64,000 bases of DNA from Haliotis asinina. Lineage: Eukaryota; Mollusca; Gastropoda; Lepetellida; Haliotidae. The translations under genes were made by a program, and so were the position numbers. Positions 21,451-33,853 of this stretch are shown piece after piece (positions within the stretch are counted from its first letter, which is position 1; each line of letters opens with the position of its first letter). The stretch spans positions 36,975,001-37,039,000 of the forward strand of contig NC_090291.1 of NCBI RefSeq assembly GCF_037392515.1, given 5' to 3'. A model generated the notes under the pieces. It ran no database searches and was not told the DNA's origin. It saw nothing but the letters and a program-made list of their open reading frames with translations.

Positions 21451-24400
21451 ATGTTACGAACGGCTGAGAGACGCCTTGAGAACGCAGCAAGACGCGCAGG
21501 ATGTCTTGCTCTCAGAGGAAAGACTGGGGAGAAGATGTGCTCGAGAGGGAAGGTGTTGACAGTCGCAAATATGAACCCTTTCGTGAAAACGATGGAGTAT
21601 GCTGTTCGCGGTCCCATCGTAATCAGGGCTGGCGAAATAGAACAGGAACTGGCAAAGGTGACATATTTTAAATATTGCCGTGTTTATTATCTTGATAATG
21701 TTGACCAAGCAAACAAAGCAAACGTAGCCAGCAGGTAGTGGGTCGGGGAGGGAGTGATGTCTGTATCAGAGTTACGTCCCCTCCCTATCTCAACTCGTCA
21801 GGTGTTCATTCATGAGTGGTCAAAGAGACATAAGTGTAGTTTCACTGAAACGTGAACCTAGTGTGACGTCACTGTGACGTCACACACCTGATAATACGAT
21901 ACATAGTAAGTTATTTAAGACGCTGTTAGATTAAGCACATCGTGATAGGTTTTTGCTCATCATGATTTATTTCTTTGTCAAGTTAAGTGCCAGATTACAC
22001 CGAAATAACCTGTACTACATTCATTGTTTTTGAGAAATCTGTTAAAAGCACAAATTGAGAGGTTGCAAGCTGTGTCAAGGGGCTGCTTTCCGGATTGATG
22101 AGGTCTCACAATATGCACATCACGTACTTCAAGATTAAGAGTGTATTTGTCCTCTATTGAGAATCAGGTGGCCACGCTCTCTTATTTTGTTAACATGTGT
22201 CATCATGCCCCAATTACATAACTTTGTTGTCTGTTTCATTTTCATGAAATGTTGATTCAAACACCCCCCAATTAGTTGTTTCTGTCAGCTTGATACCGGT
22301 GTCTTCACAGGAACATTGCTGTGTAATAAGCAAGAAGTTATCCATAAAATTGTTTACTTAATTGTGTACATATATTGCTTTTTTAGGTTTTTTGTTCAAT
22401 ATTTTTGGACCGGTAAGAGTTAATATGTAGTGTGTGTTTCTGGTTCATGTCTTTATTAAATGATCTGCTTTTTCAAACATTTTGTGTATTAATAGGCAAC
22501 TGGTTCAGTAACTGCGATGTGTACAAACACCTTGTTATAACTATTGTCAGACTCTTGAGGCATGAATTAGCACTCTGTGAGAGTGATTTATAGCAACACA
22601 TTAGCAGCAAATCAGTGTGCGAAATAAACACTGGCCCGCTAACCCGTGGCTTGTAATAATCCAGTCGGGCCAGAAAATCTCCACAGTCACTGGCCTGACT
22701 GGCTAGCAGATTTTTATGGGATTGTTTGTTTTTATGGTATTTCACCAATTTTGTAATCTTTTCTTTCAACGTATGTCATATTTGGGATTTCACTTTCTTA
22801 GTATGACATGTTGCATTTGACCACTTTCTAAATGGCATCGTGTAATCATATCTTTTCTTTCGTTTCAACATTCAAATTTGGGTCTAGTGAAGTATTTTGT
22901 GGGCTAGTAACTTACAGTCATAGCTAGCTAGACTGGCCAGCAGAATTTGGAAACTATTTTGCACACTGCAACTAATACATGCTGGACTGAAAAGCAGGAC
23001 AGCATTTACTAGAGTTTCAGTGTCCTCATATTGGAATACCTGTGAAACATCCTGACAAGCTGACAACAGTGTTTCTTTCCTTTCAAGAATTATTCTTATG
23101 TGCATTGGGGGTTAATGTACTTTTACACCAATCAGCTGATAAATACATGTTACTGAGCTTGTGAACACACTTAACATACAGCTGCAAACAAACAAACAAA
23201 CAAACAGACCTGGGATTATTTTTTCATATTTTATGACAGCTAACAGCAACAAGTACCACAGAAATATTGACCTTCAGAAACATTTGCTCTACAACTTCAA
23301 AATATGAAGTTTTCAAACCCTTTGATCAGAACCTTTTAGTCCTTTCATCATGACAATATTTAATGTAGTGTTAAATAATGTCTTGCCACTGATACTGAGT
23401 GTAGCCATTTTGATTTTTAAATTCACCTAATATCTTCATTCAGTCAGGTAATGGTCAAGGACCCTTTGATCAGCACTCTGGAAAAATACCAGAAGTGCTG
23501 CAGGTTGTCTTTAGTAAACAAGGAGCAGGCAGAATGTGTGACTAGGGCACATATGGGATCTGGTCCTACTAAGGGGCTCAGTTATGAACATACAATTCAC
23601 TTCGTAGGTGATCCAGGGAAACATCAAGTTATGTATCTTGATGTGCTTGCAGGGTGTAAAGAAGTCTTTTCCTGATGTGATCAGAGCCAATATTGGTGAC
23701 TGTCATGCTGTCGGACAACGCCCCTTGACCTTCATCAGACAGGTGAGTAATGGTGTCAATATCATCAGACATGTGAGTACAGATGTCAATGTCATCAGGT
23801 GAGTATAGATGTCAGTATAACCTGACAAGCGAGTAATGGTGTCATTACTGTCAGACAGGTGAGTACTGATGCCATTATCATCAGACAGGTGAGAACCAAT
23901 GTCAGTATCATCAGGCAGGTGAGAACCACTGTCAGTATCATCAGGCAGGTGAGAACCACTGTCAGTATCATCAGGCAGGTGAGAACCACTGTCAGTATCA
24001 TCAGGCAGGTGAGAACCACTGTCAGTATCATCAGGCAGGTGAGAACCACTGTCAGTATTATCAGGCAGGTGAGAACCACTGTCAGTATCATCAGGCATGT
24101 GAGAACCACTGTCAGTATCATCAGGCAGGTGAGAACCACTGTCAGTATCATCAGGCAGGTGAGAACCAATGTCAGTATCATCAGGCAGGTGAGAACCACT
24201 GTCAGTATCATCAGGCATGTGAGAACCACTGTCAGTATCATCAGGCAGGTGAGAACCAATGTCAGTATCATCAGGCATGTGAGAACCAATGTCAGTATCA
24301 TCAGGCAGGTGAGAACCAATGTCAGTATCATCAGGCAGGTGAGAACCACTGTCAGTATCATCAGGCAGGTGAGAACCACTGTCAGTATCATCAGGCAGGT

Positions 24401-33400: not shown

Positions 33401-33853
33401 GTATGAGTTTTGTGAGTCAGGTGAATGAGTGAGTGAGTAAGTGAGTGAGACAGGTGAGTGATCAGGTAGAGAGAAAATGAGCTAGTTTTGTGTGTCAGTA
33501 GAGTGAGCTGAGGCAGCCAGCTGTGTGAGGCAGCAAGTGAGTCAGTGAGTAGGTCTGCACCATGATCCATTCACAATTGAATAGAGATTAATAATCAACA
33601 AATTAATGAGAATTTGATCACACAACATTAATGTTCCCTCTGCGCAAGTTGTTCAGTCGTTCCTTTTTAAGAAGCTTCTTTGAAATTTTCAAAATGTCGG
33701 CAAACCCCTGTTACCATGGTAGATATGACCATAGTTTGAAAGGAACGGGTTTTCTTCCTCAGAACCACCATTCTTCCTCCTGTGGCCAAGCTGGGTGAGA
33801 TGATGGAGAGGTTTCGGGAATTCCATAACAAGTTCCTCTCCGAGTATTCCTAG
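21451..33853 (+). CDS. GPT: Alanine aminotransferase (glutamate-pyruvate transaminase)
   Basis: This PLP enzyme interconverts alanine and 2-oxoglutarate with pyruvate and glutamate. Thirteen exons (21451-21657, 23653-23742, 25299-25407, 25758-25888, 27293-27409, 28121-28250, 29083-29162, 29933-30066, 30730-30838, 31256-31321, 32239-32394, 33003-33115, 33763-33853) join in frame to 510 residues; human GPT and GPT2 have 496 and 523. Landmarks: [20 protein letters not shown] (34-53), the NPGNPTG loop (256-262), MADEVYQ (285-291), PLP-binding lysine in [11 protein letters not shown] (K328), [19 protein letters not shown] and [12 protein letters not shown]. The first 30 residues ([17 protein letters not shown] and on) are Arg-rich with few acids, suggesting mitochondrial import. 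A TGA lies in frame 12 bases upstream of the ATG. Introns 2, 3, 5, 7 and 12 begin with donor-bearing tandem repeats. Confidence 0.96.
23743..24910. repeat. 30-bp minisatellite grown from the exon 2 splice donor
   Basis: Starting at the first base of GPT intron 2, units of 30 bp repeat to about 24910: a degenerate set (23743-23880), then 34 tight units. Each holds CATCAGGCAGGTGAGAAC and a CTGTCAGTAT segment. Two positions vary between units (CAG/CAT before GTGAG, CAC/CAA after). The unit resembles the real junction, exon end TTCATCAGACAG then GTGAGTAATGG, so it seems seeded from the splice site. Most units keep CAG|GTGAG. Since 30 is a multiple of three, long open frames appear on both strands; these are artefacts of the repeat. 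Confidence 0.95.
25408..25700. repeat. Purine-rich donor-like repeats, GPT intron 3
   Basis: The real donor GCATAG|GTGAGATAG is followed by CACAG|GTGAGAGAG (GT at 25427), a TATAGATGAGAGAG variant (about 25450), CACTG|GTGAGAGAG (GT at 25475) and TGCAG|GTGAAGAG (about 25693). The whole segment is GA-rich. It is a degenerate repeat of the donor region, less regular than in introns 2 and 5. Confidence 0.6.
26089..26239 (-). mobile_element. tRNA-derived SINE (family 1)
   Basis: The plus strand begins GAGTGAGTTTAGTTTTATGC and contains GGGAACACCAAAAATGGGCT, a reverse B box GGGGAATCAAATCTGAG and CAAAAGCTTTAACAACTAAG. It lies in GPT intron 4. Confidence 0.75.
27371..27866 (+). repeat. 62-bp array duplicating the end of GPT exon 5 with its donor
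   Basis: The unit is the last 39 bp of exon 5 (coding [13 protein letters not shown]) plus the first 23 bp of intron 5. It starts at 27371 (the true exon end), then 27433, 27495, 27557, 27619, 27681, 27743 and a diverged copy at 27805. Each of the first seven has an identical CCT|GTAAGTATAG donor, and the eighth keeps GTAAGTAC. Copies differ at only one visible site (TATACTG/TACACTG). No acceptor is duplicated, so the copies can act only as alternative donors. Reading past the first donor meets a TAG 46 bases on. Confidence 0.95.
29148..29335 (+). repeat. Duplicated end of GPT exon 7 with its donor
   Basis: The exon end GGCTGATGAG|GTCAGTAATG (GT at 29163) is echoed by ATGCTGATGAG|GTCAGCAGTAACT (GT at 29265). 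The intron after each continues alike: CAGTAATTACTTTTTCGGTA against CAGTAATTACCTTTTGGGGT, then ATTATCACACTTGTACACCA against GTCATCACATCTGTACACTA. The unit is about 102-118 bp and clearly diverged, so it is older than the intron 5 array. Confidence 0.75.
30403..30564 (+). mobile_element. tRNA-derived SINE (family 1), full length
   Basis: A-box-like TAGTCTAGTGGTTAAAGCG, B box GGTTCGATTCC, body GATGCAATATTTGAAGCCAT and tail TGCTGGAATATTGCTAAAAG then CTAACTCAC. It lies in GPT intron 8. Confidence 0.85.
33116..33545. repeat. CAGGTGAG-rich repeat at the start of GPT intron 12
   Basis: The intron starts TTTAG|GTAAGC. It continues with (GTGAGT/GAGTCAGGT) repeats in a higher-order unit of about 77 bp, seen as GATTCTT(G/C)TGAGTCAGGT and ATCAGGTAGAGTGTAAATG-like text. 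At least six perfect CAGGTGAG donor-like sites occur before 33480. They match the donor consensus at least as well as the real site. Confidence 0.8.

Follow-up and report, generated by a model that had tools for sequence, protein, structure and literature searches.

Why should several introns of a single gene begin with tandem copies of their own 5′ splice sites? The question is raised by a predicted alanine aminotransferase gene (GPT/ALT) in the 64-kb stretch of DNA analyzed here, referred to below as the window. An initial annotation of this DNA had described donor-bearing repeats at the starts of five GPT introns and knew of no described system like them. Introns 2, 5, 7 and 12 do open with tandem copies, which either contain the 5′ splice site or begin at it, and all four are positive in the junction test at z of at least 4; intron 3, the fifth, is weak when compared with shuffled sequences. 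The GPT arrays are likely to be minisatellites of the type known in amphioxus as mirages, that is, independent tandem duplications at exon ends which are tolerated, and not a new splicing system.

The features of the gene are listed below. The junction test compared positions −30 to +20 around each junction with up to 300 further bases; other supports come from Tandem Repeats Finder (TRF), gapped alignment and the Protein Data Bank (PDB).

21451..33853, plus strand: coding span of alanine aminotransferase (GPT/ALT), 13 exons and 12 introns; open spliced coding sequence, PDB match
23732..24910, plus strand: intron 2 array, 30-bp unit, about 39 copies; TRF, junction z 7.0
about 25398..25487, plus strand: intron 3, repeat of 19–23 bp, with four degenerate units of 21–23 bp read by eye; weakly supported
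27371..27878, plus strand: intron 5 array, 62-bp unit, about 7.5 copies; TRF, junction z 24.7
29140..29376, plus strand: intron 7 two-copy duplication; gapped alignment, 0 of 500 shuffles, junction z 6.4
33114..33555, plus strand: intron 12 array, 78-bp unit; TRF, families D3–D7, junction z 4.3
33820..33985, plus strand: copy across the GPT stop codon; family D11, score 26.0

The gene model as predicted is sound. The spliced frame is open and gives a 1533-nt coding sequence for 510 residues plus a stop, and residues 41–510 match human ALT2 (3ihj, E 8.8e-202, 469 of 470 residues aligned). Of the donors on offer, none but the first in each intron yields this conserved protein.

The units of introns 2, 5 and 7 are made up of an exon end, the donor and the start of the intron. 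The intron 2 array starts 11 bp within exon 2, with the donor at 23743, and most of its units contain CAG/GTGAG (the slash marks the splice site). In intron 5 the unit consists of the last 39 nt of exon 5 and the first 23 nt of the intron (donor at 27410); the array proper occupies 27371–27833, and 27878 is reached with a diverged last copy. The sequence 29140–29253 in intron 7 aligns, with gaps, to 29241–29375, so that a unit of about 110 bp joins ~23 nt from the end of exon 7 to ~90 nt of intronic sequence, the donor being at 29163. The intron 12 array, whose bounds were taken from a scan at threshold 14, begins at donor 33116 with no duplication of the exon, and each unit holds several CAG/GTGAG(T) motifs. 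Over GPT and the second gene described below, the splice signals repeated within units are CAG/GTGAG, CCT/GTAAG, GAG/GTCAG and AAG/GTAAC. The units of intron 3 begin 10 bp within exon 3 (donor at 25408). Their junction score was reached by 26 of 200 first-order shuffles. For their tandem score, sets of 500 shuffles at order 1, 2 and 3 contained 0, 3 and 24 that reached it; the array is plausible by eye and weak. A further copy, absent from the initial annotation, involves the end of the gene: the 48 nt over the stop codon (33820–33867) recur 118 bp on, at 33938–33985, with 79% likeness.

The unit lengths at the intron starts differ, as had been claimed, being 30, 62, ~110, 78 and ~23 bp for introns 2, 5, 7, 12 and 3. 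The likeness of the copies also varies, from 99% in intron 5 and 81–84% in intron 12 (TRF) to 76% and 89% for pieces of the intron 7 duplication, which is old. End copies are diverged in the arrays of introns 2 and 5. The varied divergence and unit lengths, with the diverged end copies, are consistent with replication slippage or with template switching, and with unequal exchange afterwards. Short tandem duplications would have arisen independently across or at exon 3′ ends, either of the first two processes being the probable route, and unequal exchange would later have expanded and homogenized some of them. The true exon would still be ended by the upstream donor, with the copies behind it leaving as part of the intron, and the arrays, presumably neutral, would persist because they are tolerated: a transcript cut at the first donor would still encode the intact protein. 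Introns 5, 7 and 12 each have an in-frame stop (at +40, +34 and +2) ahead of the second donor. The ends of introns 2 and 3, compared by eye, do not resemble their own repeat units. Both strands of the intron 2 array also carry open frames of 342 to 435 codons (window 23706–25102), because its 30-bp unit has no stops in those frames, and a gene finder could be fooled by it.

Three further junction arrays are present in a second gene, two at donors and one at an acceptor. It lies in contiguous stretches of contig C1 (106 Mb), part of a same-genome sample of 28 stretches of 10 kb (280 kb, labelled L; a 2-kb piece, L001, was left out), where exons match PA14, TIG and CEMIP_beta-hel in Pfam; on these matches the gene is putatively named fibrocystin-L-like.

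L006:2396 to L024:911 (C1 ~20,082,396–20,090,911): 8.5-kb junction array after the PA14 exon, 47-bp unit in 180 copies
L022:396–608: 51-bp unit, about four copies, behind an exon and at its donor
L008:338–397: 20-bp unit GT...AG, about three copies, running up to the acceptor of the CEMIP_beta-hel exon

The 47-bp units repeat the end of the PA14 exon with its GTAAC donor. The anatomy of the arrays, their differing divergence and these three junction arrays are direct observations, and the occurrence of the same anatomy in a second gene supports the mirage-type reading.

For the second gene 47 exons were used, of which 46 were predicted. Training an ab initio exon finder on GPT and, for the most part, a zinc-finger-like gene of the window gave too weak a tool, which at threshold 8 recovered 4 of the 11 internal exons of GPT. 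Retrained on GPT and two second-gene stretches, the finder placed six GPT exons exactly, these belonging in part to its training set; from 50 kb of the second gene came 41 predictions on the gene strand, 16 on the other strand and 9 on the reversed sequence. Thirty-seven of the 41 were used, four (scores 8.3, 8.8, 11.6 and 16.6) having been dropped as outside the gene or doubtful, and nine predictions from L006 and L024 and one manual exon (L006:2179–2441) were added. Once the array had been seen, the exon starting at L022:248 was shortened from an end at 574 to one at 418; the junction at 574 was flagged too. The remaining stretches of the sample were scanned without gene models. One 10-kb stretch, L018, has several long open frames on both strands and is guessed to be a large mobile element.

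That other genes show nothing like the GPT arrays, as had been stated, is true of eight donors in the window (NKIRAS 0 of 6, the zinc-finger-like gene 0 of 2) and untrue of the fibrocystin-L-like gene. The two neighbors contribute the following features.

7475–12960, plus strand: NKIRAS (kappaB-Ras) gene, six exons found
46002–46131: 60-bp perfect tandem copy, about 10 bp past the stop codon of the minus-strand zinc-finger-like gene

NKIRAS1 was matched from two of three frames in a PDB search with the three plus-strand frames of 5001–20000, and Ras was the sole Pfam match in six frames of window 1–15000. Ten long open frames in the window gave one match in Pfam, below threshold, and Rfam gave none at the gathering threshold.

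Are intron starts then favored? In four genes pooled (GPT, NKIRAS, zinc-finger-like and fibrocystin-L-like), 6 of 65 donors were repetitive, compared with 75 of the 698 positions taken from intron interiors and lying outside junction-anchored arrays (one-sided P 0.71); with those arrays counted in, the interior figure is 243 of 877. Intron starts are not favored in general, a conclusion that rests on four genes. The initial annotation expected repeats to be commoner at intron starts than elsewhere and had itself named the lack of such an excess as evidence of chance or ascertainment; in this sample the expectation was not borne out. Arrays as a class are not donor-rich: the first 20 stretches contain 51 arrays, of which 8% had p<0.1, and a strong donor-like motif was found in one, that in L008. 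In a coding-score edge test on 224 array orientations, left and right edges numbered 42 and 44 at threshold 4 and 17 and 9 at threshold 7; the null of this test is confounded by random points within exons.

These counts bear on the proposal that a repeat-rich genome simply drops some arrays at exon edges and that GPT was noticed for having several. Such chance placement concerns position only and is thus compatible with mirage-type duplication. Interior positions are repetitive as well, 74 of the 75 being in the second gene, and array edges in that gene fit random placement both at donors (3 of 23, P 0.21) and at acceptors (one, P 0.81); in this strict count one of the three donor edges (+7, a TTCA-type repeat) has no exon copy. 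GPT departs from random placement, with three of six arrays starting at donors at a single fixed threshold of 18 (P 0.015) and with an excess of repetitive donors over interior positions given below. As an account of where the arrays lie, chance is rather unlikely.

Several results weigh against reading the GPT arrays as tolerated mirage-type duplications and nothing more. Donors were hit in 4 of 12 cases in GPT (introns 2, 5, 7 and 12) compared with 2 of 53 in the other genes (one-sided P 0.009), and 1 of 99 interior GPT positions outside arrays was repetitive (P 0.0004 against the same 4 of 12), while none of the 12 GPT acceptors has any array. GPT remains an outlier, richer in junction arrays than the other three genes; its excess was noticed first and placement was tested afterwards. 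No stop comes before the second donor of intron 2 (30 nt on and in frame) or of intron 3 (19 nt on and out of frame), so the copies there are not necessarily silent. Diverged end copies are absent from the 180-copy array, whose first and last six units are 0.96–1.0 identical to the consensus. The 51-bp array leaves the frame open through its units, which makes the donor in use uncertain; it may be a coding repeat instead of a junction array.

The excess in GPT raises the possibility of a mutational process directed at donors, linked to R-loops, transcription or the spliceosome, and strongest in genes like GPT. With cluster bounds from threshold 14, five of six GPT arrays start at donors, a number reached in 0 of 100,000 random placements (P 0.00034 for at least four); this version of the test is optimistic because the bounds come from a lower threshold, and at threshold 18 the evidence shrinks to the figures given above for GPT and the second gene. 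Over the four genes donors exceed acceptors, of which 1 of 65 was repetitive (P 0.11), but they do not exceed interiors, and an acceptor array exists. In the first 150 bases G-skew is +0.26, +0.48, −0.10, +0.14 and +0.61 for introns 2, 3, 5, 7 and 12, and the three highest values among the 12 GPT introns are those of introns 12, 3 and 2. As evidence for R-loops this is mixed, because intron 5 is negative and because the arrays themselves create skew. A donor-directed process is judged improbable. A broader form, in which boundary-directed duplication recurs over time in this lineage at exon 3′ ends of certain genes including GPT, at donors and even at the stop codon, and thereby lengthens introns from the 5′ side, is held to be equally improbable.

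Selection for redundant donors, with extra copies securing splicing or recruiting U1 snRNP, might be expected to leave its mark on the units themselves. The GT is retained in 169 of the 180 units of the longest array. The donor bases, however, are not conserved above the rest of the unit in either long array: the donor columns score 0.976 compared with 0.977 elsewhere in the 180-unit array, where 63% of circular shifts score as well, and 0.963 compared with 0.980 in 34 units of GPT intron 2, although recent homogenization leaves little variation to read in such comparisons. The −1 base, one of the two most variable columns of intron 2, has changed from G to T in 10 of the 34 units, and later donors of introns 5, 7 and 12 would follow an in-frame stop. 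Selection of this kind is highly improbable. Of the mechanisms suggested initially, replication slippage appears the likeliest; donor redundancy is not supported by the donor columns, which are average, and R-loops meet the mixed G-skew.

Mirage-type duplication, the preferred reading, has precedents. Mirages were reportedly first described on Adh by Canestro in 2002, and the human IFI6 minisatellite is said to have been first reported by Turri in 1995. The amphioxus papers describe mirages as tandem repeats of exon-intron boundaries with units of 10–160 bp, which are spliced normally and whose edge units escape homogenization (PMC3087553; PMC3902484). Amphioxus examples include Adh3, the globins BflGb6 and BflGb9, TnC and PGBD5. 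The units of exon end plus intron in GPT introns 2, 5 and 7 and in the second gene are the same in anatomy, and the statement that no such system had been described does not stand (PMC3087553). Intron 12, which starts at the donor only, and the weak intron 3 fit less closely. Here, perhaps unlike in amphioxus, four or five donors in a single gene are involved and all its acceptors are free of arrays; in another gene the copy number reaches 180. Whereas amphioxus mirages are reported to be spliced normally, these arrays are known from the genomic DNA of one assembly.

In human IFI6 (6-16), downstream units of a minisatellite serve as splice donors (PMC4526556; the case is also cited in PMC3618361). 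There, as in the candidate donors predicted here, a minisatellite offers several donors. Tandem duplication of an AG/GT stretch or of an exon-intron boundary is described as a route to intron gain or change (PMC3443670; PMC4974935), and human internal tandem repeats are likewise described as involving tandem duplication over such boundaries (PMC2812944). In intron gain a new intron arises; the GPT copies, in contrast, sit at the 5′ ends of introns that already end correctly. A 27-bp minisatellite whose copy number varies lies in an intron of an abalone TSSK1-like gene; the passages on it mention no contact with a junction (PMC6905558). No mollusc report of mirages or junction minisatellites was recognized by title or abstract among the matches listed, which covered open-licence papers. 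The GPT and second-gene arrays are probably new cases of the mirages already described, possibly in a new phylum. Dispersed repeats of this genome look abalone-like and would point to a mollusc.

Junction arrays can mislead gene prediction, as the exon finder used here did in putting the ends of GPT exons 2 and 3 at downstream donors. The choice that the spliceosome makes between near-identical donors could be studied on them as on a natural experiment, with 169 GT-bearing copies in a single intron. If the host is a mollusc, mirages would not be an oddity of cephalochordates, and a genome with 100-Mb chromosomes may hold many of them.
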